In this document: positions 1,580 to 23,930 of the stretch, in pieces
Layout: every line of letters begins with the position of its first letter
Position numbering within the stretch: position 1 is the stretch's first letter
Assembly: GCA_000828835.1 (NCBI GenBank)
Contig: AP014633.1
Coordinates: 3,348,001-3,412,000 of the forward strand
Direction: 5' to 3'
Source of the DNA: Thioploca ingrica
Lineage (GTDB): Bacteria > Pseudomonadota > Gammaproteobacteria > Beggiatoales > Beggiatoaceae
Length of the DNA stretch: 64,000 nucleotides
Position numbers and translations under genes: made by a program
Notes under the pieces: model-generated
Database searches by the model: none
The model's input: only the letters and a program-made list of their open reading frames with translations
What the model was told of the DNA's origin: nothing

Positions 1580-1592
1580 TAAATAGCTGATG

Positions 1593-4500: not shown

Positions 4501-7370
4501 AAATCGTCAACGGCTTCCTTATAAACAATGTTATTATACAACTCTTCCCATTTAGTGATAAACGCTTCGCTGACTTCTTGTATTGATTGGTTAAATTCAG
4601 CACTATGCTCATCCAATTGTGGTACCACATAGGCGACTAGTTTTTTATGGTCGGAATGTCCTGATTCAGAGAGGATTAACACTGTTTCTTTGACCAGCGC
4701 GTGATGCCTCAGGGTAGCTTCAATTTCCCCCAATTCAATTCTAAAACCACGTAGTTTGACTTGATGGTCTAAACGGCTAATATATTCAATCGTACCATCA
4801 GACAACCACCGGGCTAAGTCGCCGGTTTTGTAAATGCGCTCGGTTTGGCCAAAGAGTTCGACTTCGATAAATTTCTCGGCGGTGAGTTCGGGGCGGTTGA
4901 GGTAGCCGCGGGCGAGGCCATCGCCACTCGTAATCAACTCCCCCACAATTCCTACCGGGAGAGGTTGGTGATTTTTATCAACAATGAATACTTGGGTATT
5001 AGCAATGGGTCTGCCAATGGGAATGGAATTGCTATAATCGCGATCACTAATTGAATAGCAACAAGTAAACGTGGTATTTTCAGTTGGACCATAGCCGTTG
5101 ATGAGTTGGGTCTCAGGTAATAGGCGCAGTGCTTTCTGAATATGCGAAACGGATAGCGCTTCACCCCCAGTTAATAATTGCTTCACTCGATACAAACTTT
5201 TCGGATACTCCTCCAACAGGAGATTGAATAAACTGCTGGTCAGCCACAGCACGCTAATATTTTCCTGCTGTAAGACTTCAGCTAGTGCTTCAAGGCTTTT
5301 CCGCGATGCTGGCATGACCACCAACTTCGCACCGTGCAGTAATGCCCCCCAAATTTCCAGGGTAGCGGCATCAAAGGAGATAGACGCATATTGCAGAAAA
5401 GTTTGTTCTGAATCGAATAGGGCATAGTTAGTGTTTTTGACTAATCTAACGACAGCACGATGAGGAACACAAACCCCCTTGGGCCTCCCGGTCGACCCAG
5501 ACGTATAAATCACATAAGCCAAATCCGTCGCTTGACAGTTCACCAACGGATTCTCGGTCGGTTGCTTTGTAAAATCCGCCTCATCCAAACACACCACCAC
5601 ACAATCCGGTTTCAACTTATCTAACGACAACTGTGCCTTTAAATGGCTTTGCGTCAATAACCACGGTGCCGCACTATCCTCCAGCATATAACGGATCTGC
5701 GCCGCTGGATAACTCGGATCAATCGGGACATAAGCCCCACCCGCTTTGAGAATCCCCAACAAACCGATGACCATTTCCAAGGAACGTTCCACTGCAATGG
5801 CCATCAACGGATTATGAGAACGGCTTCCCGCTGGAGTCTTAAACTGAAGTAAATAGTGCGCTAACTGATTCGCCTGGTCATTGAGTTGCCGATAGGTCAG
5901 TTGCTGGTTTTCAAATACCACCGCGACATGGTTTGGCGTTTTGGCCACTTGTTCTTCAAACAGCGTCACGATGGTTTGATGGTTCGGATAATCGGTTTTA
6001 GTACAGTTCCATTCAATAAGTTGTCGGGTTTCTGATTCCGTTAGGATAGGCAGGTTATAAATCAGAGTAGAACTGTCAGCTAAGACCGCTTGCAAAATTG
6101 TCATCAACCGGTTTTGCAAGGCTTGAATATCCATTGGCGTGAAGTAAGCGAGGTTGTAGACAAAATCGAGTTTGACATCGGATTGCGCATGAAAATCCTG
6201 CACATGGATAATTAGCGGTATTTGTTCCCACGCCTGCCACAGCAACGAGCAATAACTTTTAATACCATTAAACTCGGTATCATAATCAAACTTTTGATAC
6301 GACAGACTAATATCAAATAACTTCGAGTGTCCGGTTTTAAAACCGACTTCTCGATTCAGCTCACTAATTGGAAAGCGTTGATAACGATAATTCGCTCTCA
6401 GTGTCTTTAGAATCTGAGCAAGCAGTTCTGCAAAGCTTAGGTTTTGGTCGAAACTAAATAAAATTGGGCTTATACTCACAAATAAACCCGCCGTTTGCCT
6501 AAATTGGGCATTAGAACGGTTTAAGATAGGCCACCCCAGAGTAAAGTTATCACTTTGCGCCGTGCGGGTGAAATAGACATAGAGCGCACCTAGTAGCACC
6601 TGAGGCAACGTGGCTTGGTGTTGTTTCGCTAAGCTATCTAATTGCTGATAAAAATCCCGTGGCAGATAGAGTGCCTCACAGCCACTGCCAACTAAACTGT
6701 TGGTGAAGAGTGAGCGATAACGCGGACTGAGCAACGGTTCGGGTACAGTGGAATATTTCTTCAACCAATAGCGGCGTTGTTCTTCAAATTTATCAGATTC
6801 AATATACGCACGGTCATCACGGATGTAATGCGTGTATGACGGTGATTCTAAATCCGGTGTCTGTTCCTGAGCAAGTTGGGTATAAATACAGGCTAAAGAA
6901 TGGTGAAGTAATGCTATACTATGTCCATCAACGATCAAGTGATGGTATTGCATCAACCAATAATAGCGGGTATCACTCGTTTTCACTAAATCATAACGAA
7001 ATAGCGGCTGTCCAATCAATTCAAACGCTTCGTTAAATCGCGCTTGCATCCACTCCACTGCCAATTGTTCAGCATTATCATGCTCGGAAAAATCCTGCAG
7101 CGGAACTGAAACCGATAATGTGTTCACAAACGATTGTAATGGTAGCCCGTCTTCACTTTCAGTATCGGTTAATACCGTGCGTAGGGCATCATGTTTTTGT
7201 ACCAGCAGTTTGACGGCCTGCTCAAACAATGCCGGGTCAATCGGGCCAAAAATTCTGATATATCCACCGACGTTATAGAGCGCTATATCCTCGTGTAGAG
7301 CCTGGTCAAACCAAATTTCGCGTTGGGAAGACGTGAGGGGATAGTCGGTTTGTGGGGTATGTGAGGACAT
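1593..7370 (-). CDS. Non-ribosomal peptide synthetase, C-A-MT-PCP-C
   Basis: The protein has 1925 residues. The first condensation domain (about 10-440) carries HHLIVDG at 143-149. The adenylation domain (about 450-890) has YTSGSTGRPKG at 622-632. The usual pocket positions read D667, A668, L671, W709, L733, G735, G759, T767, F768 and K1374, close to valine-type codes. A methyltransferase is inserted in the A domain (about 930-1310; SAM motif VLEMGCGVG at 997-1005), as in N-methylating modules. The carrier domain has LGGHS with Ser1431. The final condensation domain has HHLIYDA (1621-1627) in place of HHxxxDG. There is no thioesterase or reductase domain, so release must occur in trans. It is the last gene of the minus-strand series; the start is an ATG with AAGAGAT upstream. 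Product prediction is inference. Confidence 0.93.
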   Translation of the reverse strand: MSSHTPQTDYPLTSSQREIWFDQALHEDIALYNVGGYIRIFGPIDPALFEQAVKLLVQKHDALRTVLTDTESEDGLPLQSFVNTLSVSVPLQDFSEHDNAEQLAVEWMQARFNEAFELIGQPLFRYDLVKTSDTRYYWLMQYHHLIVDGHSIALLHHSLACIYTQLAQEQTPDLESPSYTHYIRDDRAYIESDKFEEQRRYWLKKYSTVPEPLLSPRYRSLFTNSLVGSGCEALYLPRDFYQQLDSLAKQHQATLPQVLLGALYVYFTRTAQSDNFTLGWPILNRSNAQFRQTAGLFVSISPILFSFDQNLSFAELLAQILKTLRANYRYQRFPISELNREVGFKTGHSKLFDISLSYQKFDYDTEFNGIKSYCSLLWQAWEQIPLIIHVQDFHAQSDVKLDFVYNLAYFTPMDIQALQNRLMTILQAVLADSSTLIYNLPILTESETRQLIEWNCTKTDYPNHQTIVTLFEEQVAKTPNHVAVVFENQQLTYRQLNDQANQLAHYLLQFKTPAGSRSHNPLMAIAVERSLEMVIGLLGILKAGGAYVPIDPSYPAAQIRYMLEDSAAPWLLTQSHLKAQLSLDKLKPDCVVVCLDEADFTKQPTENPLVNCQATDLAYVIYTSGSTGRPKGVCVPHRAVVRLVKNTNYALFDSEQTFLQYASISFDAATLEIWGALLHGAKLVVMPASRKSLEALAEVLQQENISVLWLTSSLFNLLLEEYPKSLYRVKQLLTGGEALSVSHIQKALRLLPETQLINGYGPTENTTFTCCYSISDRDYSNSIPIGRPIANTQVFIVDKNHQPLPVGIVGELITSGDGLARGYLNRPELTAEKFIEVELFGQTERIYKTGDLARWLSDGTIEYISRLDHQVKLRGFRIELGEIEATLRHHALVKETVLILSESGHSDHKKLVAYVVPQLDEHSAEFNQSIQEVSEAFITKWEELYNNIVYKEAVDDLAFNRSGWQSSCTREPIPAQEMRVWVDSTVATIQAWHPEAVLEMGCGVGLLLSRIAPHTRIYWGTDFSSMALQQVEQLKQRQPQLSHVVLKLRTADDFSGISSAQFDTVILNSVIQYFPSVDYLIKVLEQAINAIKPGGHLFVGDVRHLPLLHTYHASVQAWQATAEITQPTLRHRVVQQQLNDKELVIDPRLFIALSQQHPRVTGVKICPHRGLAHNELTRFRYQVILEIEHSASPASTTVDWQYWQPDRFSLDQLRQQLETPLTRLLGLRGVSNARLERENAIVEWLNNAPATETVGELRQSLATRIFTGLEPEALWQLGEELGYNVDIGWHNVNAQGHYEVLFNRRGADTPPAVFPIPRVNFKAWRDYANNPLHSQLSEKLIPQWREYLSERLPEYMIPSTFMLLDALPLTPNGKIDRHALPDPESAYQIGVGEYVPPRSVEEEILAQIWAEVLGLEQVDIHDNFFELGGHSLAAVQLLAKVKAAFGVQLNLQQIFDAPTVAEFADNLACLRVTSRWVEAPAPVSRANPLPITFFQEWFWRSSQNNPGSHLFHGIVRLRITGELDRNLLQNTLVEIVHRHELLRTTYREHEGLVEQIIHAEFPVSLPLLDAMEIPGEQQVPMVNEWLREFLRQPFVPQEAPPWRATLIQLARDEFILAICLHHLIYDARSLQILSGELQTIYSAWSHNQSVPLEPLPMQYADYAYWERHILAPYVADDCLAYWREWFARGLPPKLVFSTQRSVTDAGFSAGVIPWKFSPANLRSLSKVLKATNITPPLALIAAIATLLHQDTGEGDIVIGLPFADSTYSIQERLIGPTGRFLMLRLDLSSNSGFRELLYLTRRVFLEAQSRQFMTILEGIQKLGIQAKPGEILFHFLLSYIPLSLSVAGTNLPAKKVKFDVTESLTMVTDELVMRPNLSLVIQEQKTPEGIALKGNCFYRKSWFENEDAQSLVKRLQTLLEAASNL

Positions 7371-7511
7371 CTAGATTATCTCTTTTAACGTAAGTTCGGG
7401 GTAAGGAAGTAGCTAAAGATTTGAAGTATAACCAGCTAAACGAGCAGTAATGTAATAGTTAACGCCGGAATTGACATGTTCTCTCCTAAAACAACCGAAA
7501 AGAGTAGATCA

Positions 7512-8659
7512 CTATCTCATCCAAGGCTGGGTTCGGGTAATATCCATCAGGTAAATGTTCTTGAACAGATTTAGTACTGTTAGGGGTGGTGAACTTGCAG
7601 CAAGGTTACTTGGCCATTTTTCTACACGAGCGGCAAAGAAATACACTTCATTGGCACCGAGATTGGCGAAGTTTTCCTGAAAGACTTGATACGTATCATC
7701 CAGGTAGAGTTTGGTATTTAAGGCACTGCGGAGGACCATCATATCGTAGCCCAGGTTACCAGGTCGTTAGTTTTGCCCGTGATTAAAATTTGCCCACCAC
7801 AGCCACTATGTTGCTCCACGATGCGGTTAAGTTCTTTAGCAAATAGCAACTCACCCTCTTTGCCAAGACCAAAACCTAAAAACTCCATCGCCCCGCCCGG
7901 ATTGAGTTTGGGCAGGTATAAAGATAAAATTTCTTTGGTGAGCGCTAAACCATCGGCGCCACCGTGGCCCACCAGGGGAAATTTCATAGTATTGGGCACT
8001 GGGACAAAAGGGGTGTTGGACACGATTAAATCATAACTTTGTTGATCTTGAATGGCAAAATCTTGTGCTGACTGGTTAATCACTTGGATGCGATCATCAA
8101 AGCCATTAAACCGCAAATTAAACTCAGCCATTTTCGCCGTTGCTGGATTGATTTCCACGGCGGTAATCGAGCTTTGACTGTGATGAAGTGCTATATTCAT
8201 GGCTTGTATGCCGCTACCAGCACCTAAATCTAAACATTTACCATTATGTGGAAGTGGAATATGAAACGTACCCAAGGCCACGCTGTCTGGGCCAAAATAC
8301 ACGGTGGGTTGTTTCAGATGTTCATTGAAATTGCAAAAAAACAGAATGGAATTAAAACAGATCAACATGAATTCACTATGACACTCATTCCCTTCATTTT
8401 AGAAAATACTCGCCTCCAGCAATGTCTGGTACATCGCTTCGCCCAATAAGGTGGTTACTTGGTTTATCGAGAAGGGCTTATGCAACATAAATAAGTCTAC
8501 CAGTTATCTTAAATCGGAGGGTAACCCGTTGGCATTATCTCTCCATTCTTCACGACGTACATTACCATTGCCAAAGGCTAGATAATAGTGAATGTAGCCG
8601 GTTCGCAGCAAAAGTTCTTTAAAGGTTCTGAAAGTTTCATTCGAGAATGTTTGGGTCAT
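7512..8659 (-). pseudogene. Decayed second copy of the cluster methyltransferase
   Basis: Across about 1150 nt this region can be aligned by eye, in three frames, with the intact methyltransferase at 16620-17774. The start at 8659 reads MTQTFSNETFRTFKELL and continues GYIHYYLAFGNGN, the same as residues 23-35 of the intact copy. An in-frame TAA interrupts it near 8505, and frame changes occur near 8370 and 7740. The middle part (7739-8368) keeps a SAM motif (DLGAGSGIQAMNIA) but has SNTPF where the intact copy has NPPF. The last part (7512-7742) matches the C-terminus (VLRSALNTK, ANEVYFF). The gene is almost certainly non-functional. It implies a past duplication within the cluster. Confidence 0.82.
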
Positions 8660-8909
8660 AGTAGGAATCCCTTAAAAAGGCTAGATTGATTACGATCGAT
8701 AGTATAGACTTTCGTTTGTTTATAGCTTGACTTGCTTCATCTAAGCCTGGTGCGTGGAAGGCATAAATGGGGGTTTGTTTTGAAATGGCACGCGCAAATT
8801 CACGGTAAAACGTGATTTGACCAAAAATAGAATGGACTAAAAATAACAGTTTTCTTATTGGATCGCCGGCCTGAATTTTAGGTAATAGAGCGGAACGCAT
8901 TGTCGTCAA
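8637..8909 (-). pseudogene. N-terminal remnant of an NRPS-type thioesterase
   Basis: The frame begins with sequence typical of the start of an alpha/beta-hydrolase thioesterase (LLFLVHSIFGQITFYRE, then PIYAFHAPGLDEA) and then loses similarity after about 55 residues, running into the upstream end of the methyltransferase pseudogene. The nucleophile GxSxG, the Asp and the His regions are all missing, so it cannot be active. The sequence before the motif (LLPKIQAGDPIRK) looks like the linker found between carrier and thioesterase domains, so this may once have been the tail of a longer synthetase. No good ribosome binding site is evident; the frame opens with TTG. Confidence 0.6.
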
Positions 8910-8913
8910 GTGT

Positions 8914-9901
8914 TCAACCCGGTATCAAGATCGCCCGTTCACCTTTAGAGGAACTAAAAGACAACGCCTCCTGTATTTCCTCGAAGCGGAACCGTTGACC
9001 GATAGCCATCTTAAAATGCGGCCAGTGAATGATGTTGCTGATATCTTCTAGGGCTCTTGCTCCAGGCGTTGTCCTGCACGGTAGCGCTGACAAAGTTACC
9101 AAACCCGCTGATGTGCAAGCCTTTGATAAGAATTTGACTGGTCTGGATACAAAAAGGTTGGTTGCCGCCCAGAAACCCATAGGCATAAATGCTTGCCCCC
9201 TGGGGTAGGAACGGTGCTACCCGGCTCAACGTTTCTCCACCCACGCCGTCGAATACCGCAATTGCACCGAGTTTCGCGGCCAGCGTCTCCAGTTCGTGCT
9301 CAAAATTGGCGGCATCCAACGCCAGTACCTGGGTGGCACCTAGAGTTTCCAAACTTTGAATGTCACTGGTTTTACGCACCAGGGCGAGACAAGGCAGGTC
9401 TTTAGTCTTACACACCCCAATCATGGCGCGGCCGGTTGCCGAAGTACCAGCGGTGCAGATGATACCCGGCGAACCGGCTTCGATGACTTGCTTCCAGAAA
9501 GCATAAGGGGTGATGACATTCACTAAAGAACCGCAATATTCTTCAAGGTTAGCATCATCTGGCAATATCACGCAATGTAAATAATGCAACTGGGCATATT
9601 CAGACCAAGTCCCCACCAGATGGTCACTGAATTTCAAAGACCGGTAAAACGCGACTTTTTTCCCCTGGTAGCGTGGCGGCACGCCATTTCCCAAGGTAAT
9701 CACTTCCCCGGCTCCGCTGACACCAGCAATATCATGCAGACTTTCCGGCGCCCCCGGAATCGCGCCGGCCAACCAAGCTTTATCGCCAGGATTAATAGCA
9801 CAGGCGTGGACTTTTACTAAGACATGGCCGGCGGTGATTTCCGGCCGGGGCACTTCCCGGATTTGTACGGTAAGATCCAAAGCTCGACAAATTGCTCGCA
9901 T
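8914..9901 (-). pseudogene. Zinc-type alcohol dehydrogenase/quinone oxidoreductase-like gene, frameshifted
   Basis: The first frame (9901 to 9011) encodes an MDR-family oxidoreductase: a GroES-like N-terminus (HVLVKVHACAINPGDKAW), the nucleotide-binding region (TAGTSATGRAM) and FDGVGGETLSRV. It ends abnormally in SPRRYQQHHSLAAF. The normal C-terminus (LEDISNIIHWPHFKM through GERAILIPG) sits in the next frame at 8914-9060. Removing one base near 9055 restores a continuous reading of SKALEDIS. It is therefore either a one-base frameshift mutation or a sequencing error. An intact protein of about 328 residues would reduce an enone or quinone with NADPH. Its start is 0-1 nt from the DUF2156 gene upstream, so it belongs to the same operon. 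Confidence 0.8.
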
Positions 9902-10881
9902 TATTCGCTCCTCATAAAGAATGAATCTGTCACGGCATCCGATTTTCGAGTTGCCGTGTATTTTTTCAAAAAAAAGGCTGGCCGATAAAGCTGTTTTGCG
10001 GTACGCAGGCCGGAAATACCCAAATCCTGCTGCAGGTTCCAGTACACCAAGCCACGTTCATGCAACCATTTGAGCACTTGCCAATCGATAAAATGGTAAA
10101 TTCCCTTAAAGTCCTTGTCCGCGTGTGTGAACAGGCAAATCGCATAGTCATCCTGAAATTCATTGATACTGTACGCCCGCAAGATACCGTCAATGTACAC
10201 GCCCACCGCTAGCCAGCTTTGATATGCCGCAATTTCGCGCAGCCGTTCTACGGCGGTCATATCGTTGGACACATCATTTTCATCGTGCTCTTTTTGTGTC
10301 TGCCAGTGTGCATTAAACTGTAACAATGTTTGCCAAGTGTGTGCATCGGTGAGATCCAACAACTTGAAATTGCCGTGGTAGCTTTTTAGAAACCGATTGA
10401 GGTGTCCGCGGAAAGAATCGTATTTCTTGCCTCGCAGGGCTGAGAGTTCTACGATGCGATAAATATAGTCGTGATTATCCGGATCTTCTGCAATTTCATA
10501 ATTAGGTAATACTTGTATAGACTTCATAAAGTGTTCTGGAACGAGCCGGACGGCTTGCTGAATATCCTTTTGTTCCAGAATAAACTCGAATAAGGTATCC
10601 AAAGCCAAATTAACTTGATTTTGTCCATAAAAAGTATAAAAAGGTTCTCCAGTCGTGTAATCGGAAAACTTAATCACTAGATTACCGTATAAATCTGCCA
10701 GTTCGATTTTTCTCTCAACATCCCAGCACCAAAGCGAAGCAAAAGTATAATCGCTGTAAGGGGGATAGGCGCTGGTATAGTTTGCAAGTATGGCTTGGTG
10801 GCTTAATCGTAATGGTTCCAGGTGCGGAAAACTGGGTAATTTGACGGTAAACACCTCCCCATGAGCGCCAAAATACATCAT
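9901..10881 (-). CDS. DUF2156-type acyltransferase (phosphatidylglycerol lysyltransferase C-terminal-like)
   Basis: The protein resembles the soluble two-GNAT-fold domain that transfers an aminoacyl group to a lipid or other acceptor. The clearest family signature is near the C-terminus: YWNLQQDLGISGLRTAKQLY, followed by RPAFFLKKY. There are no membrane segments, unlike full MprF proteins. The start is taken at the ATG at 10879-10881, which follows GGAAGGAA and nearly overlaps the stop of the ATPase gene; an upstream in-frame start would overlap that gene by 55 nt and is less likely. Tight spacing to its neighbours suggests co-translation. In a biosynthetic cluster it could add an acyl or aminoacyl group to the product, but the substrate cannot be read from sequence. 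Confidence 0.75.
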   Translation of the reverse strand: MMYFGAHGEVFTVKLPSFPHLEPLRLSHQAILANYTSAYPPYSDYTFASLWCWDVERKIELADLYGNLVIKFSDYTTGEPFYTFYGQNQVNLALDTLFEFILEQKDIQQAVRLVPEHFMKSIQVLPNYEIAEDPDNHDYIYRIVELSALRGKKYDSFRGHLNRFLKSYHGNFKLLDLTDAHTWQTLLQFNAHWQTQKEHDENDVSNDMTAVERLREIAAYQSWLAVGVYIDGILRAYSINEFQDDYAICLFTHADKDFKGIYHFIDWQVLKWLHERGLVYWNLQQDLGISGLRTAKQLYRPAFFLKKYTATRKSDAVTDSFFMRSE

Positions 10882-10882
10882 C

Positions 10883-12904
10883 TCATTCCTTCCGGCGGTG
10901 CTCTTGTAATAAAGGCAACATGGCGCTGCCCACCCCAAGTGCCGCGCTGGCGCAATAAAACACCAGGGTGTTGGTCACCGTAAACCCCAAAAACAGGCCT
11001 CCTCCCATACAGATAAGACTGGGTGCAACGACGCCTAGGTTAATAGTCAACTTTTGATTGTTGCCGAAACGCTTAGCTATGTCTAGGGCATCCAGTAGTT
11101 GCATTAAATTCTTGTTCGTTAAGATGATTTGTGCACTGTCCATAGCTACGTGCGAAGCATCTTGTAGAGATACCGAGACAGCCGCTTTTTTTAGGGCAAT
11201 GGAATCGTTAATGCCATCCCCCACAAAACACACCGATTTACCCTGTTGTTGCAATTTCTCAATGACTTTGGATTTATCTTCGGGTAGAGTTTCCGCGATG
11301 TAGGCATCGATACCTAATTCTGCCGCGAGATTTTTCACCGGGCCTTCATGGTCTCCAGAGAGGATGTAGACTTGCAAACCACGTTCATACAGGTGGCGTA
11401 CCACTTGCGCTGCTTCTGGGCGCACTGTAGGGCGTAATTCTACCGCCCCACACAAAGCCTCGTTCACAGCGGTGTATATCAAGGAATAACCGTGCTGGTG
11501 AGCGTTTTGTTCCACGGCGGCGAAAGATTCTGGCAAGACAATATTCTCCCGCTGCATGAAGTGCACACTACCTACACGCACCACCTGCCCTTCCAGATTT
11601 ACGCGGAGGCCGTAACCAATACGGTATTGTGCCTCATCAATCAGTGGTAGTTCCAGTCCTTGCTTTGCAGCCGCATCAAGCACTGCCTTAGCAATGGGGT
11701 GAGTTTGCCGATATTCCGCCGCAGCAGTATAGAATAATACTTGTTGTTCGGTAAAGCCTGCAGCCGGATAAATTGTACTCACATGGGGTTGTTCTAGGGT
11801 CAAAGTGCCGGTTTTGTCGAAAACCACGGTATCCACTTTAAGCAATTGCTCTAGGGAACGTCCGTCCTTGATGAGTAAGCCCGCGCGTGAGGCGATGCGC
11901 AGATAATTAAGCATCCCCAAAGGCACAGTGAAACTCATCACATCAGAAAAATTGGAACAGAGCACCACCGCCATAGACATTGGGCCAGTAATTAACAGAG
12001 CGAATCCGGCAAGGCCAAGGGTAGGAGCTACCGAATCATTCGCTAGTTGTTCACTACGGATTTGCAAGGTTGAAATATAACTATCGGTATGGTCTAAAAT
12101 TGCCGCGATATGGGCAGCGACTGTCTCCGCTCCAGTTTGTTCCACGCGCACCGTAATCCGTCCAGAAATTACCAGGGTGGTGGCAAAGACCTGTTGATCC
12201 ACGGTTCTTTCTTCCGGCTGTGCCTCGCCAGTTAGCATGTGTTGGTCAAGGGTAGCAATTCCCTCTTCAACGATCCCATCGATAGGAACCATCTCCCCAG
12301 TGTTGATCACAATTCGATCCCCTTTGCGAATTTGCTCCAGGGGGACACTGATTTCCACGCCATCTTTGAGCAGCCACACGGTTGGAGGATGACCGCTGAA
12401 AATATCCGTCAGCCGGCTTTGAGTTTTGTGCCGGGTTTTGTAAAGCATTTTTGAAGAAGCAAAATAAATCACGGTCGCAAAAGCACTCAAGGCATATAAA
12501 CCACTGCCAATTCCAGTGCCGATAGCGGTGGATTCCAGCACGGAAATGCGCAACTCTTTTTCTTTCAAGCACTCGTAAGCATTTTCAAACACATCCAGGG
12601 TCACGTATCCCAAGATAGGAAGACTTAACAAGCCGAGAGGAAAGTAGAGCAAATGGCCCGCCGCTGCCAGTACCAGTCCCACGCCGGCGACTTGCAAATA
12701 ATGATTTAGCTCTGCCTCTTGCTCTATTCCAATCCTAGGGGTGACTAAAGTGTTCTGAGCTTTGGGAAGGATTAGCTTATCACTGGGTGATTTCGGAGCC
12801 GGAGTGAATATTTCTTCACCATTTTTACCTCTAGTAAGGTGTTTAGCCGTGTAAGCACCCGCTAAACTGCCACTAAATAAAAGAATTCCCAATAAGTGAA
12901 TCAT
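10883..12904 (-). CDS. P-type ATPase with P1B-like body but no CPx metal motif (copy 1)
   Basis: The 673-residue protein has all cytoplasmic P-type elements: actuator TGEA (225-228, usually TGES), phosphorylation site FDKTGTLT with Asp363, THP at 401-403 and VGDGINDS (561-568). Hydrophobic stretches lie near 1-20, 68-108, 120-150, 292-340 and 618-662, which resembles the P1B layout. The membrane helix that should carry CPC/CPx before TP reads CSNFSDVMSFTVPLG (316-330) with no CPx. There is no N-terminal CxxC metal-binding domain, only a hydrophobic N-terminus and a charged linker. It is the paralogue of 14315-16312, sharing LNYLxIA and LIKDGRSLE. Transported ion or lipid unknown. It starts 43 nt after the MamK-like gene in the same direction. 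Confidence 0.85.
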   Translation of the reverse strand: MIHLLGILLFSGSLAGAYTAKHLTRGKNGEEIFTPAPKSPSDKLILPKAQNTLVTPRIGIEQEAELNHYLQVAGVGLVLAAAGHLLYFPLGLLSLPILGYVTLDVFENAYECLKEKELRISVLESTAIGTGIGSGLYALSAFATVIYFASSKMLYKTRHKTQSRLTDIFSGHPPTVWLLKDGVEISVPLEQIRKGDRIVINTGEMVPIDGIVEEGIATLDQHMLTGEAQPEERTVDQQVFATTLVISGRITVRVEQTGAETVAAHIAAILDHTDSYISTLQIRSEQLANDSVAPTLGLAGFALLITGPMSMAVVLCSNFSDVMSFTVPLGMLNYLRIASRAGLLIKDGRSLEQLLKVDTVVFDKTGTLTLEQPHVSTIYPAAGFTEQQVLFYTAAAEYRQTHPIAKAVLDAAAKQGLELPLIDEAQYRIGYGLRVNLEGQVVRVGSVHFMQRENIVLPESFAAVEQNAHQHGYSLIYTAVNEALCGAVELRPTVRPEAAQVVRHLYERGLQVYILSGDHEGPVKNLAAELGIDAYIAETLPEDKSKVIEKLQQQGKSVCFVGDGINDSIALKKAAVSVSLQDASHVAMDSAQIILTNKNLMQLLDALDIAKRFGNNQKLTINLGVVAPSLICMGGGLFLGFTVTNTLVFYCASAALGVGSAMLPLLQEHRRKE

Positions 12905-12946
12905 AACGCCTAGTAGAGTGTGATAGAGTGTAAATACAAAGTCAGT

Positions 12947-13954
12947 TTAAAGTTGCTCCCAGTATTCCTCTGGCATGTCTTCGCACATTTTCAGCGTACC
13001 TATGCTGCCACAGAACTCGGCGTCGGTTACGCAAATGGCTCGACCGCCGCCATAGGGTTCCAGATTCTTCTCGATAGCACGGTCGATGCCTTTAAGGCGC
13101 GAACCACCTCCGGCGAGGATAATGTTATTACGTAAGCGCTCCTGAAACTCTGGGTCGAAGCTGCCCACTAATTCTTGAATTGCCTTGCTGATGGGCGGAA
13201 TCAGTTTGGAGCAAGCGGTATGTAGGATCTGGGTCAAATCATATTTATCAAGAATGCCCTGCCGAGTGAGGGTAACTATGACGGGTTCTGACACATCGTA
13301 TACATAGCCGTATTTTTCCTTAATATGCTTGATAATTTGCGGGGTCAACTGAACTTCCGGGTATTTCTCCAGGATAGCTTTAGTTAGCACCGCTTCTAGA
13401 TAATTACCGGCTTCATTAAGAGTGATTTGATCTTCCGCTTCCGCGAAAGAACCGTGCATACGGCACAGATCGGTGGTGCCCGCACCGATGTCCACGATTA
13501 AGCACTCGTCAAACCGATCCAGGGCATAGGCCACAGCGAATGCTTCACTGACAATGAGCAACTTGTTCACCAAAGGCCCAGTTGCCTCCAGAATGGCTTT
13601 CTTGCTATTTAAATTAGCTTGAGTGGGTACCCCGATAGCGGCGAACAATCGGTCTTCATCCCGTTTTTCTGGTAGGGTTGCGTTAATCAACTGTTGCAAA
13701 ATCAGGCGCGTGGCTTCCAGAGATTTTTCGTCTTCACAAATGACCCCGTCCGCTAGTGGCCACACCACATCCAGTGCGAGTCGGTGCTTTAGCACTTCTT
13801 CGCCAAGCAAATAATTCTTCCCGAAACGTTTTCTAGCAATCAAATCCTTGCAATAACCCACGCAGGTCAGGGTGGTCAAGCGTTTGCCGGTGGAAGTAGT
13901 AATAGTGGAACGGCTAGTGCCAAGATCGATGCCGGCATGATAGGTCTTAGCCAC
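12947..13954 (-). CDS. MamK-like bacterial actin
   Basis: This is a 335-residue actin-fold ATPase. Phosphate loop 1 is GIDLGTSRS (8-16), phosphate loop 2 is IVDIGAGTTDLC (153-164), and the adenosine motif is LAGGGSRLKG (280-289). VSEAFAVAYALD (135-146) contains the Glu that corresponds to the catalytic residue in MamK. The spacing of GNYL, EKYPE and the C-terminal CEDMPEEYWEQL resembles the magnetosome filament protein MamK, as I remember it, more than MreB or ParM. The start is GTG, overlapping the preceding gene by 8 nt, so the two are probably co-translated. MamK polymerises into cytoplasmic filaments that position organelles. Here no other magnetosome gene is present. Assignment to the MamK branch is from pattern recognition and needs a phylogeny. 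Confidence 0.8.
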   Translation of the reverse strand: MAKTYHAGIDLGTSRSTITTSTGKRLTTLTCVGYCKDLIARKRFGKNYLLGEEVLKHRLALDVVWPLADGVICEDEKSLEATRLILQQLINATLPEKRDEDRLFAAIGVPTQANLNSKKAILEATGPLVNKLLIVSEAFAVAYALDRFDECLIVDIGAGTTDLCRMHGSFAEAEDQITLNEAGNYLEAVLTKAILEKYPEVQLTPQIIKHIKEKYGYVYDVSEPVIVTLTRQGILDKYDLTQILHTACSKLIPPISKAIQELVGSFDPEFQERLRNNIILAGGGSRLKGIDRAIEKNLEPYGGGRAICVTDAEFCGSIGTLKMCEDMPEEYWEQL

Positions 13955-14315
13955 GATTATTTTCCCCCGTATTTAAGTCCTTGCGTAACTTGAGGTTCGT
14001 TTCTAAAATGCCTTTTAAAAACGAGGTTCTAATAGAATCCTGCGCCGGTTTGCGTGTACCTACAGCCCGCCGGTTTACTGCCTCTGGCGAAGAAGCTACT
14101 TGCAATGTTTTTACGTGTGCCGCGAGGGCTTGGTTTTCCGCTGCTAGGCGGTTGAGTTCCGCTTGCTGACGTTCGATTTCATCACGATTATTAATAGTTT
14201 CTGCACTCAAGCGACCCGCCAGCGCGCCTACTACCGTACTACCCACTAGCCAGGGAATAGTTACGGTGAGCAACCAGTTGACGGCCACAGGAGAAGCGAG
14301 TAAAACGGGCACCAT
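13947..14315 (-). CDS. Small membrane protein with coiled coil, unknown
   Basis: The 122-residue protein begins with a hydrophobic hairpin-like segment (about residues 1-36, containing LLTVTIPWLVGSTVVGAL) and continues with a heptad-rich region (about 40-72, DEIERQQAELNRLAAENQAL) and a basic, polar tail. That layout suits a membrane-anchored scaffold or adaptor. It overlaps the P-type ATPase gene upstream by 1 nt (TAATG) and the MamK-like gene downstream by 8 nt, so translation of all three is probably coupled and their products may work at the same membrane. No family was recognised; the idea that it links the filament to the ATPases is inference. Confidence 0.75.
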   Translation of the reverse strand: MVPVLLASPVAVNWLLTVTIPWLVGSTVVGALAGRLSAETINNRDEIERQQAELNRLAAENQALAAHVKTLQVASSPEAVNRRAVGTRKPAQDSIRTSFLKGILETNLKLRKDLNTGENNRG

Positions 14316-16312
14316 TATGAACTCTCATCGGGTTGGTGGCTTAACGCCGGCAGCATAGCATTGGCTACACCTCCTACCAGTCCTAGGAGATTCAAGACAA
14401 TACTTTGGGCCAAGCCATAATGCAGCAAAAATGCCCCACCCACGCTGATAGCCGCCGGTGCTAGCATGATAGCGAAAGTCATATTCATGTTGTTATTATA
14501 ATTTTTTGCTACGTCAAACAGAAACGGCAAATGAGTCAAGCCTTTATCCATGAGAATGACTTCCGCCGTGTCTACCGCGATGCTGGAAGCACCGCTCAAG
14601 GACACCGCCACCTGCGCCTGTTTTAAAGCGATGGAATCGTTGATACCATCACCTACATAGCACACCACTCGACCCTGTGCTTGCAATTTTTTGATAATTT
14701 CAGCTTTTTCATGAGGCAACACTTGTGCAAAGTACTCATCAATCCCCAGTTGTTTCGCTAAACTTTGAGTAGGTGTCTCATGATCACCTGAAATAATGCA
14801 AGTCTTTTTATTATGGGTTTTCAGATAATGAATGACTTCCCAAGCTTCCGGACGGATTTGAGGCAACAATTCAATCCCGCCGCACACGTCACCGTCCATG
14901 GCCACCATTACTAAGGTATGGCCTTGTTCTTGGGAATAGTTCTGCTGTTCCAACAAGAACGCCGGGATTTCTAGATTTTCCGCTTGCATGAAGCGGGCAC
15001 TACCCACCTGGATTTTTTTATGGTGAATCATCACGGACACACCATAACCCAATTTATATTCAGTTTCCTCAATGGATGGCAAGTTGATACCACGGTTTTC
15101 CGCCTCGTGCAAGATGGCTTTGGCCAACGGATGGGTCTGCTTGTATTCTGCCGTTGCGGCATAGGTAAGGATTTCGTTGGGGTAATACTGTTTTAGACAA
15201 TGGATCTCACCCACCACCGGGCATTCTTCGGTCAGGGTACCGGTTTTATCAAATACTACCGTATCCACGGCATTGAGCAGTTCTAGGGAACGTCCGTCTT
15301 TGATCAAGATATTGTGTTTGACCGCGATATTGAGGTAATTTAAAGTGCTAATGGGTGCAACAAAAGTCATTTTTTCCTTGGGATGGGAGTTGATTACGGC
15401 TAATGCGCCGTTCAATCCCAACAGAGGAATGGCAACCACGCCTCCTACCAAGGCCGGTATCACCAGATCCTGGGAGAGTTTCTCCGAGCGCATTTGTACT
15501 GTGGATTTGAAATCCACGGTATTGTTCAAAATGCTGGTAATCTTGGCCACCGTAGTTTCTGCTCCCGCTTGTGTTACTTTGAGGTAAATTTTACCGGACA
15601 GCAGGATTGTAGAAGAAAAAACGGGATCGCCGGCTTGCTTTTCGACGGGTTGTGATTCTCCAGTCAAGATATGTTGATCGATACTCGCCATCCCTTCGAC
15701 GATGTTCCCGTCTGCCGGAATGGAATTACCGGCTTGCACCACCAAAATGTCCCCAGGCTTGATTTGCTCATAAGGTGTTTTAATTTCTAAATTATCCACC
15801 ACTAGCCATACATAATCTGGTTTCTTTTCAAAAATATCAGCGATATCCTGTCTGGATTTTTCAGTGAGCATATTGGTGAGTTTAATGCTCCAGATAAATA
15901 GTACGGTGATTAGACTGGAAAGAAAGAACCCACCCGGAATGAAGCACGTACCAGCGATGGCGATGGTAATTAGGGTGTAGGCGGTGACTTTACTTTGCTT
16001 TAATTGTATATAGGTTATCTTAAACAGGTCTTGCAGTGCATAAAGTGTGAACGGCAAGCTGACAAGGTTCATGGGTTTAAACACAAAACCGATGCTGGAT
16101 AACCCTAAAGCGGATAAGGCAGCAATATTCTTTCTTTGGAACGAATCTTTTTCTTGAGTTGATACGGTTTTCCTCACTGGAGTGGCCGTCGTAGTATCAA
16201 CGAATTTTATTTTGGCCTCGTCCTTAGGAATATATTCGCCAACTATCACGGCCTCGGTTTTTTTAAAACTAACGAACAGCAGTGCGGCTAAAGCGGCTAT
16301 TTGTACAATCAT
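14315..16312 (-). CDS. P-type ATPase with P1B-like body but no CPx metal motif (copy 2)
   Basis: The 665-residue protein keeps the full catalytic set: TGES (217-220), FDKTGTLT with Asp355, a THPLAKAIL nucleotide-domain motif and YVGDGINDSIAL. Hydrophobic stretches lie near 1-15, 65-95, 110-148, 285-305 and at the C-terminus. Where P1B pumps have CPC, this one reads NSHPKEKMTFVAPIS (308-322), a charged stretch without Cys, which is very unusual inside a membrane helix. No CxxC domain is present. It is the paralogue of the ATPase at 10883-12904, with the MamK-like gene and the coiled-coil gene between them. Ion specificity cannot be inferred; transport of something other than a soft metal, or a partner-dependent pump, is possible. 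Confidence 0.87.
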   Translation of the reverse strand: MIVQIAALAALLFVSFKKTEAVIVGEYIPKDEAKIKFVDTTTATPVRKTVSTQEKDSFQRKNIAALSALGLSSIGFVFKPMNLVSLPFTLYALQDLFKITYIQLKQSKVTAYTLITIAIAGTCFIPGGFFLSSLITVLFIWSIKLTNMLTEKSRQDIADIFEKKPDYVWLVVDNLEIKTPYEQIKPGDILVVQAGNSIPADGNIVEGMASIDQHILTGESQPVEKQAGDPVFSSTILLSGKIYLKVTQAGAETTVAKITSILNNTVDFKSTVQMRSEKLSQDLVIPALVGGVVAIPLLGLNGALAVINSHPKEKMTFVAPISTLNYLNIAVKHNILIKDGRSLELLNAVDTVVFDKTGTLTEECPVVGEIHCLKQYYPNEILTYAATAEYKQTHPLAKAILHEAENRGINLPSIEETEYKLGYGVSVMIHHKKIQVGSARFMQAENLEIPAFLLEQQNYSQEQGHTLVMVAMDGDVCGGIELLPQIRPEAWEVIHYLKTHNKKTCIISGDHETPTQSLAKQLGIDEYFAQVLPHEKAEIIKKLQAQGRVVCYVGDGINDSIALKQAQVAVSLSGASSIAVDTAEVILMDKGLTHLPFLFDVAKNYNNNMNMTFAIMLAPAAISVGGAFLLHYGLAQSIVLNLLGLVGGVANAMLPALSHQPDESS

Positions 16313-16326
16313 ACCGGAATTCGGAC

Positions 16327-16584
16327 CTAGCCTTGTTTGCCCGTGACCACATCCGCCAGGACTTTGACTGTACTAAAGGATTCCGGTCGGAGTTCATCGT
16401 CAGAGAATTTAATCCCGAATTCTTTTTCCACCAGCGAAATTAACTCCACCAAAACGACAGAATCCAGACCTAAACCTTCTTCAAACAGTGGGGTATCGTT
16501 ACCAATTTCTTCCCGAGTGATGTTAGCATCCAGTTCTTGAGAAATAACATCTTTCAGGCGATTGATAACGGTCTCTTGAGACAT
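16327..16584 (-). CDS. Acyl carrier protein
   Basis: An 85-residue stand-alone carrier. The attachment motif is GLDSVVLVELI, with the serine in DSV (about residue 40), and the acidic helices around it are typical. The start is an ATG with GAGGT at a good distance. It is 35 nt after the methyltransferase and 14 nt before the P-type ATPase gene in transcription order, tying the ATPase/actin genes to the biosynthetic genes. The adjacent AMP-ligase could load it directly; the NRPS first condensation domain could accept the loaded acyl group. Both steps are inferred from gene order. Confidence 0.9.
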   Translation of the reverse strand: MSQETVINRLKDVISQELDANITREEIGNDTPLFEEGLGLDSVVLVELISLVEKEFGIKFSDDELRPESFSTVKVLADVVTGKQG

Positions 16585-16619
16585 ATAAAACTACCTCATT
16601 GAGTTGATAGTGGTAAAAC

Positions 16620-17774
16620 TTAGACAGGTAATTGCCAAATGGTAGAGCGAATAATTTCGCCCAGGTAAAGTTCTCTTGCCAAGTTTATCACAGTCAACTG
16701 ACTGTCGCTAGGTTGCTTGGTATTTTTGCGGATGCGGCAGAAGTATAGGTAAACTTCATTGGCATGGATTGCGCGAAAGTGCTCTGTTAAGGCTTCATAA
16801 GCGGCGGCAACCAGGATCTTGGTGTTTAACGCCGTTCTCAAAACCATATTGTCATACAATTGATTATTCGGTTGCAGCCGGAATTTCGTGACCAGGGTAA
16901 TATGCCCGCTATAACCCGGATGTTGCGCTAAAATCTTCTCAAACTCTCCGATAAATGTAGGGTTGCCATTTAATCCTGGGACGAACCCCAAAAACTCCAC
17001 TGTTCCACCTTCAGCCAGTTTAGGAAGATATAAATTTAAAATAGTCTTAACCATACCAAGACCATCCGGTCCACCATTGCCCACAAATGGGAACTGGTGC
17101 GATTGAGGAACTGGTACGAAAGGTGGGTTAAACACAATCAGACTGTATTGATTGTGGTTCTGTTGCGCATATTCCTCTGCCGAGAGGTTGAACAACTTGA
17201 CCCTTTCATCTAGGTGATTTAAATACAGGTTAAAGCGAGCCATCATTATCGCACGAGGATTAATTTCCACCGCATCTACCTCGTGTTGTGTATGCCGGGC
17301 AATATTCATTGCTTGAATCGCACTACCGGCGCATAAATCCAGGGACTTACCGCCGTACTGCGGAATATGGTAATGACTCAAGGCCACACTGTCTGAGCCA
17401 AAATACACCGACGGGGGGGCTAAGTGAGAATTAATCTGGCAAAAAAGCCAAATAGAATTCACACACACCAGTACGTAATCATCGGTAAAGGTGAAATTGT
17501 CTTTAGTTGTTAAGATCTCGAAGCTAAGCAGCAACTGATATACATCTTTGCCCAGCAGTTCGGATACTGCGGTGATCTCAAGCCATTGGTTGAGTAAAAA
17601 CAGTTTTACCAAAGCTTGGACTTGTGTAGGTAGATTACTGGCATAATCTCCCCATTCTTGCTGACGCATATTGCCATTACCAAAAGCGAGATAGTAATGG
17701 ATATAACCCGAATCGGATAACAACTCGCGAAAAGCTTGGAGAGTTTTTTGGTTCGGTTTTTGAGTTTGATCCAT
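16620..17774 (-). CDS. SAM-dependent methyltransferase, intact copy
   Basis: The 384-residue protein has a class I methyltransferase core in its second half: SAM motif SLDLCAGSAIQAMNIA (about residues 138-153), acidic VDAVEINPRA, and the motif FNPPFVPVP, a variant of (N/D)PP(Y/F) used by enzymes that methylate nitrogen in glutamine or bases. The N-terminal 100 residues (GYIHYYLAFGNGN) are not a domain I can name. A decayed copy lies at 7512-8659. The start has AAGAGGAATAT ahead of it. It is 12 nt downstream of the AMP-ligase. Likely it methylates the cluster product or a carrier-bound precursor; modification of a protein is the alternative because of the HemK-like motif. Confidence 0.8.
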   Translation of the reverse strand: MDQTQKPNQKTLQAFRELLSDSGYIHYYLAFGNGNMRQQEWGDYASNLPTQVQALVKLFLLNQWLEITAVSELLGKDVYQLLLSFEILTTKDNFTFTDDYVLVCVNSIWLFCQINSHLAPPSVYFGSDSVALSHYHIPQYGGKSLDLCAGSAIQAMNIARHTQHEVDAVEINPRAIMMARFNLYLNHLDERVKLFNLSAEEYAQQNHNQYSLIVFNPPFVPVPQSHQFPFVGNGGPDGLGMVKTILNLYLPKLAEGGTVEFLGFVPGLNGNPTFIGEFEKILAQHPGYSGHITLVTKFRLQPNNQLYDNMVLRTALNTKILVAAAYEALTEHFRAIHANEVYLYFCRIRKNTKQPSDSQLTVINLARELYLGEIIRSTIWQLPV

Positions 17775-17786
17775 ATATTCCTCTTA

Positions 17787-19193
17787 TTAACGGGCTGTCA
17801 GTTTTACTCTATCCACTTTGCCATTAGGCAGGAGTGGCAGAGAATCGAGAATACGCACTTCATCGGGCACCACCCGGCGAGGTAGTTTGTCGAAACAATG
17901 CGCACGGATAGCTTTAGCGGACAAACTACTGTCTTTAGCAATCACGCAGTAGGCAATTAGTTTTTTGCCACGCTCAGTTTCACTGCCAGCAGTCACCGCC
18001 ACCGCTTCTACTTGTTCCAGAGTCCCGATGATTTTTTCCAAGTCCGCGAAAAACACTAGCAGGCCATCGCGGTTGACGCTGTGGTCGCTTCTGCCCAAGA
18101 CTTCCAGATACCCTTCGGGGCTGAGTCTGGCGAAGTCCTTGGTGCAAAACCAGCCGTCTGCCCCTAAATCGACCGGGTTTCCGCGCATATCCACGTAGCC
18201 CTTGAAACCATAGGTGTGTTTGCACCATAACTCGCCTTCGCTATCTTGCCCCTGGAGCCGAAATTGTACGTCTGGCATGGGCAAACCCGCAGTGCGTTGA
18301 CGCACTTCCATGGGCAGAGCCGGAGTGCCTGCGGCGATGGCCCCTAGTTCGGTACTGCCGTAAAGTTGCACCAGCGGCCCAAAGGTGGTTTCGTAACGCG
18401 CAAAACTATCGGTGCGGAAGCGGTCACCCGCAGTCACAGTGAGGCGGTAAAGGTGTGCCGACTTGCGCGTTTGCAACAAGGTATTAGCAAAGGATGGAGT
18501 CATGAAGGCCACATTGGGATTGAAAGTCGTCTCACGCTGGATAAACTTCAACAGGTTGGCTCCTTTTTGCAAATCTAGCGCCGCACCCGCCGCTATGCTA
18601 GGTAGAAATGCTGCACCCAGGCCGTACATGTGGTAAATCGGCGCGGGTATCACCACCCGGTCGGCGTAACTTAAAGCGAAGCGGTGCACGCAGTTGAGCA
18701 CATTACTATGCAGATTAGCATGGGTATGCACGGCCATTTTGGGCGTTCCCGTACTGCCGGAAGTGCGCAGCAGCAATTTAGCGGAAGTTTCTTCAAGCAA
18801 GGGACTGTTGGGTTCCCACGCCGGATTTGCTGTGATGTTCAAAAATCGGGCGGGATTCAAGGCTTCCACCTCATCCCTATCTAGTACTTGTGCCGTCAAC
18901 GCATAGCGGCAAAAACTCGGTAGGGGTGGTGAGTTGCCGATCAAGCTGCCGCCAGGCAGAAGAAGCATACTGTAAGCGTTTTCCAGCAGGTACAACAGGG
19001 TTAGAGCAGTTGGAATGGTGTTCTCTACTTCCAGGATGAAACAGTCGTGTGGTTCAAACCCATTTTCCGTAAATACACGGTTGAACTGCTCGAAGCAACC
19101 TAGAATTTGCCCGTAAGATAGCGAAAATAGACCGTCAGTGAGAACATTGTCAGTTATTTGCCGTTCTTCAGCTAGGCAACCGATGAACTTCAT
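17787..19193 (-). CDS. AMP-dependent acyl/aryl ligase
   Basis: A 468-residue member of the acyl-adenylate family. The P-loop is LLRTSGSTGTPKMAVHTHANL split over its usual length, followed by LYGSTELGAIA, the hinge region DGWFCTKDFARLSPEGYLEVLGR, read in parts, and the C-terminal catalytic lysine motif LPNGKVDRVKL. It has no fused carrier domain. It overlaps the DUF98 gene by 4 nt (ATGA), so the two are coupled. The family of short aryl ligases (p-hydroxybenzoate, benzoate) has this size. A reasonable model is activation of an aromatic acid made by the DUF98 protein and transfer to the ACP; another acid cannot be excluded. Confidence 0.85.
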   Translation of the reverse strand: MKFIGCLAEERQITDNVLTDGLFSLSYGQILGCFEQFNRVFTENGFEPHDCFILEVENTIPTALTLLYLLENAYSMLLLPGGSLIGNSPPLPSFCRYALTAQVLDRDEVEALNPARFLNITANPAWEPNSPLLEETSAKLLLRTSGSTGTPKMAVHTHANLHSNVLNCVHRFALSYADRVVIPAPIYHMYGLGAAFLPSIAAGAALDLQKGANLLKFIQRETTFNPNVAFMTPSFANTLLQTRKSAHLYRLTVTAGDRFRTDSFARYETTFGPLVQLYGSTELGAIAAGTPALPMEVRQRTAGLPMPDVQFRLQGQDSEGELWCKHTYGFKGYVDMRGNPVDLGADGWFCTKDFARLSPEGYLEVLGRSDHSVNRDGLLVFFADLEKIIGTLEQVEAVAVTAGSETERGKKLIAYCVIAKDSSLSAKAIRAHCFDKLPRRVVPDEVRILDSLPLLPNGKVDRVKLTAR

Positions 19194-19771
19194 CGTAAAT
19201 CACTTTTGAAATATTGTTCAGGGAATTTTTCCGTAATCATCATGATGGGTACGCGTTGGCAAAACACCCGGTAAGTCCGGGAAAGCAAAATTTTCTGTGG
19301 GCCAATTTGGAAATGAACGCCCAAATCATGAGCGGGTTCCCGCCGCGCGGTAATGATTTCCTTGTAGGTCTCAGTTTTATGCGCGATCCAGAGTTTACCG
19401 ATGGGTTCATGGGAGTTCAACAACTTATCTTGAAAGTTCTTTTCTAAACGGTTCAAAACGATAATGGAATCCGCATACAACCAATTCCGCCCGCTCAACT
19501 TACCCTGGAGCAGAATTTTGCGTTCGATAATCTCTTGACCAGCGTCCAGTTCGAGCACTTCGATGGGAGATGGGGCTGGAAACACATCTTCCAGCAGTTT
19601 GACAATCTGTATCCGTTCGTCCAAGGAGATTTCAAGGAGTTTGGTCAAAGTGCCATCAGCAACGAGCAAAATTCTTTGCAAAGGGCTAAGTTCTTCCAGG
19701 ATCAACTCACCCAAAACATGGTAATCATGTTTTGAATCAGGCAATTGAAGGGAACCTGGTTGGATTGTCAT
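19190..19771 (-). CDS. DUF98 chorismate-lyase-like protein
   Basis: The 193-residue protein has the hallmarks of the DUF98 family: ELSPLQRILLVADGTLTKLLE near residues 30-50 (read in two parts) and the C-terminal GPQKILLSRTYRVF. Members such as mycobacterial Rv2949c cleave chorismate to 4-hydroxybenzoate and pyruvate. It overlaps both neighbours by 4 nt: the sulfotransferase upstream and the ligase downstream. That coupling supports a joint role in making and activating an aromatic starter. Enzymatic activity is inferred from the family, and some members may use other substrates. Confidence 0.75.
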   Translation of the reverse strand: MTIQPGSLQLPDSKHDYHVLGELILEELSPLQRILLVADGTLTKLLEISLDERIQIVKLLEDVFPAPSPIEVLELDAGQEIIERKILLQGKLSGRNWLYADSIIVLNRLEKNFQDKLLNSHEPIGKLWIAHKTETYKEIITARREPAHDLGVHFQIGPQKILLSRTYRVFCQRVPIMMITEKFPEQYFKSDLR

Positions 19772-20451
19772 GAGATTTGTTGGCCCGTTGTTGCCATGAA
19801 ACGATAATTGAACAACTCGATATCTGCCCTGAAATGTTCTGCCACTAATTTTCTGGTATGCTCATTGTAATAGCGGGTATAATTCTTATGCAGAGTGTGG
19901 TTTAGCACCGGCAAAATGGCCTGCACTCCGATGGGGTTACAAACTTTTTTGAAATCCTCAGCTAGGGTTTCAAAGCGACCAAGAAAATCGACGATGATGT
20001 TACCCTCCCGGTCCGTCACGATGTCTTTTTGGTACTTGGTGGCCCCACGGGTAAAGGGGTTGTGGGTCGCCACCACCCATTCCAGATATTCCTCGAACCC
20101 GGCCATCTTACTGATCCGTTCGTGATAGAGATGATCCGTGCGCTTGAGGATGAAATGGTACATGGACACTTGCCAGTCCCAGGGATTTCTCACGAAAGCG
20201 AATTTGTAGAAACCGTCGAACACTTCCGTTGGCAATTCCTGTTGCGCATCCCGCGCCTTGGCATGCAACAAGGTGTTGGTCCAGGCTTGATACATGGGAT
20301 TCGGGCTGCCATCCGGGCGGGTGTACGGAGGCCGAGCAATTTTGAAGTGTTTCGGTTCTTCGCAATACTTTTGCAGGGCCTCGCGAATACTTATCCCAGC
20401 AACTTTAGCCACATGAAAAAAAATAAAGCGGTTGCTATAGGAAATCAGCAT
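19768..20451 (-). CDS. Sulfotransferase (family 2)
   Basis: The 227-residue protein has the PAPS-binding 5'-phosphosulfate loop at the N-terminus (FFHVAKVAGISIREAL, where most members have PKTGGTS) and the 3'-phosphate motif FAFVRNPWDWQVSMYHF near residue 90. The length suits a soluble bacterial carbohydrate or small-molecule sulfotransferase. The replacement of the usual Lys-Thr by Lys-Val (AKVAGIS) still leaves the lysine. It starts 1 nt after the carbamoyltransferase stop and overlaps the DUF98 gene by 4 nt. It probably sulfates a hydroxyl on the product, perhaps the phenol; this is inference. Confidence 0.87.
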   Translation of the reverse strand: MLISYSNRFIFFHVAKVAGISIREALQKYCEEPKHFKIARPPYTRPDGSPNPMYQAWTNTLLHAKARDAQQELPTEVFDGFYKFAFVRNPWDWQVSMYHFILKRTDHLYHERISKMAGFEEYLEWVVATHNPFTRGATKYQKDIVTDREGNIIVDFLGRFETLAEDFKKVCNPIGVQAILPVLNHTLHKNYTRYYNEHTRKLVAEHFRADIELFNYRFMATTGQQIS

Positions 20452-20452
20452 A

Positions 20453-22207: not shown

Positions 22208-22292
22208 GGGAATCCTTGCATTTTATTATTTGGGGAGAAGAAAAACTGACCGATCTCCAGTACCTAACCGGTTTTAGGCGGAGAAACCCGTG

Positions 22293-23633: not shown

Positions 23634-23835
23634 ACATTAATAATTTCTTCGATGAAGTGGAGACACAAGGCAAATAACCCTTTTGAATTTTAATTAATTT
23701 CTTCGTGAACGTCAATAACATTCTCCTGGGGAAAATAGGAATTGTCAAAAACTAAGTGGATGAGAAACGAACAACGACTTGATTTATACAGCGACTACCT
23801 AATTCAAGAACCATGCAATCTTCGGCCTCTAACCC

Positions 23836-23887
23836 ATTGAAGTCAATCACCGTCATTAAGCGATTGAAGTGGGTCACCGCCATTAAG
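23836..23887. repeat. Two-copy imperfect tandem repeat, 27-bp period
   Basis: Two adjacent units begin ATTGAAGT and end TCACCG(T/C)CATTAAGC, at 23836-23861 and 23863-23887. They lie in the gap (23634-23930) between the biosynthetic cluster and the cytochrome gene, close to the change in base composition. No other feature was seen in that gap except the likely promoter of the minus-strand operon, which I cannot place. Confidence 0.7.
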
Positions 23888-23930
23888 CTGAGAATTGAAT
23901 TTTCAACCATCCTCCCTTCCTTAGAAGAAC

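Follow-up and report, generated by a model that had tools for sequence, protein, structure and literature searches.

What is the role of an actin-like filament gene that lies between two P-type ATPase genes and next to a gene for an acyl/aryl carrier protein (ACP)? This arrangement is found in a 64,000-nucleotide stretch (the window; C1:3348001-3412000) of the complete 4.81-Mb genome of Thioploca ingrica. The original prediction placed five tightly spaced minus-strand genes here, and all five open reading frames (ORFs) were confirmed, in the order ACP, ATPase A, a small membrane/coiled-coil protein, the actin, and ATPase B (Table 1), with intergenic gaps of 14, -1, -8, and 42 bp. Given these gaps, translational coupling and a single transcript for the five genes appear likely. 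The proposed placement of a filament gene, CPx-less ATPases, and an ACP in one operon is supported by the domain assignments (made with Pfam and NCBIfam), the motif survey, and the gaps, except that the operon is longer than claimed: a near-contiguous minus-strand run extends from position 23633 (radical SAM enzyme) down to 1593 (nonribosomal peptide synthetase [NRPS]).

The actin, which is present in a single copy in this genome, contains an MreB_Mbl/actin domain with conserved nucleotide-binding motifs. Its best NCBIfam model is that of MamK, with 364 bits, followed by BeeR with 187, and the nearest solved structures are also those of MamK (5ljw and 5jyg). However, the score falls short of the curated MamK cut-off of 400, and in the maximum-likelihood tree the protein belongs to a 44-row clade (support 95/100) that includes “Candidatus Electrothrix gigas,” Desulfonema magnum, and the Bbp proteins of Beggiatoaceae, with MamK of strain AMB-1 (38% identical) outside it. 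Actins with 65 to 75% identity are encoded in approximately 20 of 42 genomes of its family, the Beggiatoaceae, and proteins with 59 to 75% identity are found in Thiothrix singaporensis, D. magnum, “Ca. Electrothrix gigas” (63%), Zetaproteobacteria, and Riflebacteria; the Planctomycetota actins come next, at 42 to 48%. This set of homologues is the one described as Bbp (“big bacteria protein”), a clade of actins in large, filamentous bacteria that has been reported from Beggiatoa, Thioploca, Thiomargarita, Desulfonema, and Thiothrix (PMC10580974, Geelhoed et al. 2023). Given this match and the well-supported clade, the actin is, by sequence, Bbp and not MamK, and the earlier “MamK-like” label has to be abandoned as an identity. 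The tree does not group the actin with MreB: the genome's own MreB (C1:4275983, 531 bits) is separate from Bbp and shares ∼24% identity with it. ParM and AlfA were not part of the tree; the actin had no NCBIfam match to the ParM family up to an E value of 1. A plasmid or phage origin was considered and rejected, as no matches were found, including none to plasmids.

The small protein encoded directly 5′ of bbp can be newly recognized here, from alignments and profile searches, as a conserved partner of Bbp. The N-terminal parts of its relatives vary, and their ending (KLxMLKxIIxDNVxLR) is conserved. Searches with a hidden Markov model (HMM) of the partner showed that roughly 30 loci encode a relative immediately 5′ of the actin. 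The ending pattern is located near the C terminus in 43 of 8068 stop-to-stop ORFs, and 40 of these 43 (two of them copies of one contig) are the ORF directly 5′ of the actin; counted by loci, the motif occupies this position in 40 of 52. It is present in “Ca. Electrothrix gigas,” whose published bbp cluster consists of the actin, a hypothetical protein, and a Kelch protein (PMC10580974), in the gene described there as encoding a protein without known domains. It is also present in 29 of 38 Planctomycetota-type loci, on longer proteins, one of them with a GGDEF domain, which suggests an old pairing of actin and adaptor.

In T. ingrica, the match listed in Table 1 is the sole convincing one across the whole genome. 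Among 42 whole genomes, the 27-residue motif profile gave 16 matches at E values of ≤1e-5, all in Bbp-positive genomes. These matches cover 12 of the 13 Bbp-positive genomes, and 0 of the 29 Bbp-negative ones were matched below an E value of 0.05 (Fisher 1.2e-9). The recovery in Bbp-positive genomes is partly by construction: some of these sequences served to define the motif, and most Bbp-positive genomes supplied profile rows. The absence of the motif from Bbp-negative genomes is not by construction, and genomes G019 and G020, which were outside the profile, still matched and represent true predictions. In the single Bbp-positive genome without a match (G002), the contig ends at the gene. 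In genome G019, one copy of bbp is intact and two more, located on other contigs, are broken (loci L039, L040, and L044); the adaptor motif lies just upstream of each. In G020 and G022, adaptors of like build are also located away from bbp.

The AlphaFold model of the partner includes a long helix (residues 9 to 74), a linker, and a C-terminal helix (residues 93 to 120), most of the latter predicted with high confidence. A hydrophobic N-terminal stretch is present in 22 partner rows and is weak in two rows from Riflebacteria. The C-terminal helix may bind the Bbp filament. This organization resembles that of MamK with MamJ and other magnetosome adaptors, where an actin-like filament, an adaptor gene directly 5′, and an adaptor-to-organelle logic are likewise found. 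However, in three clusters with true MamK, namely, L041 (a magnetosome-type cluster of another gammaproteobacterium) and the zetaproteobacterial L072 and L189, the gene on the 5′ side of MamK does not carry the motif, and MamJ was accordingly rejected as the same adaptor. In the Mariprofundus locus L072, a partner-bbp pair lies inside the magnetosome gene cluster, close to MamH and at a distance of ∼7 kb from MamK; MamM, MamH, and MamK of this locus score over their cut-offs, whereas Bbp does not. In Desulfovibrio magneticus, the actin-like proteins Mad28 and MamK have coiled-coil partners (Mad20, Mad23, Mad25, and Mad26) in organelle positioning (PMC12748827), a likeness by description.

The 2023 description of Bbp presented it as an actin that giant and filamentous bacteria share and assigned it neither a general partner nor a function; the main text of that paper mentions no conserved membrane adaptor and no connection with P-type ATPases or biosynthesis (PMC10580974). 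The adaptor, whose ending is conserved beside this actin in lineages ranging from Beggiatoa to planctomycetes, provides, with its short C-terminal helix, a concrete handle on which membrane the Bbp filament holds and by what contact.

The two ATPases combine E1-E2_ATPase and HAD domains and both pass the heavy-metal P1B model (cut-off, 346 bits). The best Foldseek matches of ATPase A are P1B ATPases, which indicates a P1B fold; the underlying model, for which 8 sequences were used, has a medium confidence (predicted local distance difference test score, 69; predicted template modeling score, 0.55) and serves as the basis for the fold class alone. Like the P1B-type (Cu/Zn/Cd) enzymes, the members of this family share the overall fold, retain TGE and DKTGT (in 56 of 56 sampled members), and mostly retain GDGIND and HP. 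Unlike them, ATPases A and B lack the CPx motif, no HMA domain was found in either by Pfam, and their neighborhoods are linked to biosynthesis. None of the 56 sampled members has Cys at the CPC columns, and none has the M..SS tail motif. The family is expanded in Beggiatoaceae, with up to 12 members per genome and three in this one (E ≤ 1e-110); the third lies amid transposase-like fragments (L172, 9717-12002).

In many Beggiatoaceae loci, relatives of these ATPases adjoin genes for NRPS, polyketide synthases (PKS), ACP, ligases, sulfotransferases, or methyltransferases. The 104 neighbors of 20 ATPases that had not been chosen for context included methyltransferase (6), AMP-binding (4), PP-binding (4), DUF697 (3), Condensation (2), SPFH (2), and periplasmic-binding (2) families; these single counts are small, and for 90 control proteins none of these families was among the 25 listed and no family had more than two members. 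A literature search that combined P-type ATPase, nonribosomal peptide, and Beggiatoa returned nothing. This large CPx-less family, with several copies per Beggiatoaceae genome that are often found beside biosynthetic genes, poses a second question, which is now testable.

The expectation that such ATPases would be found near this actin in other lineages held up, at a frequency above chance. Within Beggiatoaceae, an ATPase is encoded ≤2 kb from bbp in three Bbp-positive genomes, compared to 0.14 expected from the copy number (Poisson 4.5e-4; p 3e-3 with copy numbers doubled); outside the family, ATPases lie equally close to bbp in L069, L073/L074, and L078. CPx-less ATPases are encoded in 16 of 16 counted Bbp-positive and 12 of 21 Bbp-negative Beggiatoaceae (p 0.005, a value that ignores shared ancestry). 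Among the genomes read, the ATPase-adaptor-actin-ATPase order was seen solely in T. ingrica, and it was rejected as a conserved unit. In L078, the order is partner-bbp-phosphopantetheinyl transferase-ATPase, followed by aminotransferase, decarboxylase, thioesterase, and ACP-like genes. Exporter and NRPS/ACP genes are likewise recurrent in the lineages that have an ATPase close to bbp. Homologues of the SPFH, DUF697, and binding-protein genes of the T. ingrica region are found near bbp in L073/L077, Thiothrix (L081/L186), and Mariprofundaceae (L083), and the Bbp locus L080 encodes homologues of its carbamoyltransferase (58%), radical SAM enzyme (60%), sulfatase (37%), and DUF697 protein (40%). 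AAT-like membrane proteins of the penicillin acyltransferase family are repeatedly encoded near bbp (L062, L073, L075, L077, and L081), with a weak Pfam match for the L062 protein alone.

The explanation favored here, which we regard as evenly poised between right and wrong, is that a membrane-tethered Bbp filament positions a membrane patch that contains these ATPases and exporters. Its core would be a two-gene filament module of the Bbp actin and the membrane adaptor. The N-terminal hydrophobic segment of the adaptor would be embedded in the inner membrane, the coiled coil would mediate oligomerization, and the C-terminal helix would contact the filament, which would thus be tethered to the membrane and able to hold or move membrane contents. 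The module would be joined to two P1B-fold ATPases that have intact catalytic motifs and no metal motif. Along with the SPFH, DUF697, periplasmic-binding, and ABC-exporter proteins that this GC-rich region also encodes, the ATPases would make up a patch of membrane (or a vesicle), held in position by the filament, from which the product of the ACP/ligase/NRPS/carbamoyltransferase pathway is exported or in which it is stored. The Mariprofundus partner-bbp pair, located beside organelle genes, counts in favor of this explanation. A more specific version, in which the CPx-less ATPases, an SPFH scaffold, and the DUF697 protein would load a carrier-protein-derived product into a compartment or specialized membrane domain unlike magnetosomes and ferrosomes, positioned by Bbp through the filament-binding helix of the adaptor, appears rather doubtful. 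Of the membrane compartment or pump patch originally suggested, the link between filament and membrane is strengthened by the conserved transmembrane and coiled-coil partner, as is the involvement of ATPases by their recurrence, and the compartment itself stays conjectural.

Several observations weigh against the positioned patch. Most Bbp genomes have no ATPase beside bbp, so the ATPases are not required for Bbp. Genome G001, from the same genus, has no Bbp but encodes a B-like ATPase beside the genes for ACP (80%), ligase (66 to 75%), chorismate-lyase-like enzyme (86%), and radical SAM enzyme (87%), with an A-type ATPase ∼10 kb away; the actin module therefore appears to have joined a pre-existing ATPase-biosynthesis set in T. 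ingrica. In L080, the P-type ATPase relative beside bbp (12539-14473) lacks TGE and DKTGT (it has DPRGTLT instead), a loss that would make normal pumping impossible; it is probably a dead ATPase retained near the actin, and pumping may not be the point at that locus. In addition, several of the biosynthetic ORFs in the window appear frameshifted, and the recovery of the motif is, as noted, partly built in. The G001 genome, the prevalence of Bbp-adaptor pairs without ATPases, and the published association of Bbp with large cells (PMC10580974) would all suit a cytoskeleton that serves large or filamentous cells in general, at the scale of the whole cell, and whose module was inserted into this operon without being functionally connected to either the ATPases or the product. 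This is possible but on the unlikely side, given the above-chance presence of ATPases near bbp in several lineages and the recurrence beside it of genes from the region (SPFH, DUF697, carbamoyltransferase, and others).

Alternatively, the ATPases could operate autonomously in the envelope, pumping (or flipping) the biosynthetic product or a metal complex of it, with the actin serving only to spread them across a large cell surface and no compartment involved. The biosynthetic neighbors of their relatives and the intact TGE and DKTGT motifs are consistent with this option, but the missing M4 metal-binding motif, the missing M..SS tail, and the degenerate copy in L080 make it quite unlikely. Ferrosomes (Fez clusters) also have a P1B-type ATPase in a small gene set tied to a compartment, a likeness by description; to our knowledge, their clusters contain no actin. 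An iron organelle of the magnetosome or ferrosome type is very improbable in T. ingrica: even though MamK is the closest characterized relative of the actin and a Bbp pair lies within the L072 magnetosome cluster, the ATPases lack the metal motif, the actin is outside the MamK branch, and no MamM or MamH over the cut-off was found in this genome, which by itself disfavors such an organelle. A magnetosome identity was rejected because of the missing MamM and MamH, in agreement with the initial statement that the magnetosome gene set does not match.

Table 1. Features of the T. ingrica locus (positions in the window)
Feature	Position	Strand	Basis
Thioester-reductase-like protein	112..1305	+	PF07993
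NRPS (C-A-MT-T-C)	1593..7370	-	Pfam
LPG_synthase_C/GNAT-like acyltransferase	9901..10938	-	PF09924
CPx-less P1B-fold P-type ATPase B, 673 aa; NFSDVM near CPC place	10883..12904	-	TIGR01525, 379 bits
Bbp-clade actin-like protein, 335 aa, GTG start	12947..13954	-	NCBIfam and tree
Conserved Bbp partner, 122 aa: hydrophobic segment at the N terminus, then coiled coil, linker, and C-terminal helix	13947..14315	-	Alignments, HMM, AlphaFold model
Partner C-terminal motif (TSFLKGILETNLKLRK)	13977..14051	-	Profile match, 1.7e-7
CPx-less P1B-fold P-type ATPase A, 665 aa; HPKEKM near CPC place	14315..16312	-	TIGR01525, 414 bits
Acyl/aryl carrier protein	16327..16584	-	PF00550 (PP-binding), 47 bits
Methyltransferase	16620..17774	-	PF05175
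AMP-dependent ligase (probable ACP loader)	17787..19193	-	PF00501 and PF13193
Chorismate-lyase-like enzyme	19190..19771	-	PF01947
Sulfotransferase-like protein	19768..20451	-	Named by eye, without domain scan
Carbamoyltransferase	20453..22207	-	PF16861 and PF02543
Radical SAM enzyme with HemN C terminus	22293..23633	-	PF04055 and PF06969
GC-rich region, right part	1..24000	Not applicable	Whole region ∼40 kb, GC 0.47

Some of the surrounding genes also have relatives near bbp or the ATPases. Homologues of the sulfotransferase-like protein (54 to 58% identity) are encoded near bbp or adjoin such ATPases in L156, L159, L163, and L185, and those of the thioester-reductase-like protein (49 to 52%) adjoin ATPases in L160 and L162. 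The GC-rich region, which stands out against the right flank (0.38), extends ∼16 kb to the left of the window (locus L043), where it encodes SPFH and DUF697 proteins, a periplasmic-binding lipoprotein, an ABC exporter, OEP, a sulfatase, and a split radical SAM protein. The last of these is sulfatase-maturase-like, its gene being broken into two ORFs (L043, 11710-12844). An IS5-like transposase fragment, recognized by eye, marks the left edge of the region (L043, 4705-5629), and inside it lies a gene whose product combines WD40 repeats with caspase-like and peptidoglycan-binding domains (L043, 12941-16189). Between positions 7512 and 9186 of the window, neighboring ORF fragments are seemingly frameshifted, reflecting either decay or sequencing error; they comprise a methyltransferase in two frames, a short thioesterase-like piece, and an alcohol dehydrogenase truncated at its end. 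Farther to the right, at 48582-49105, the window contains an apparent small toxin-antitoxin pair of the Phd/RelE type, also recognized by eye.

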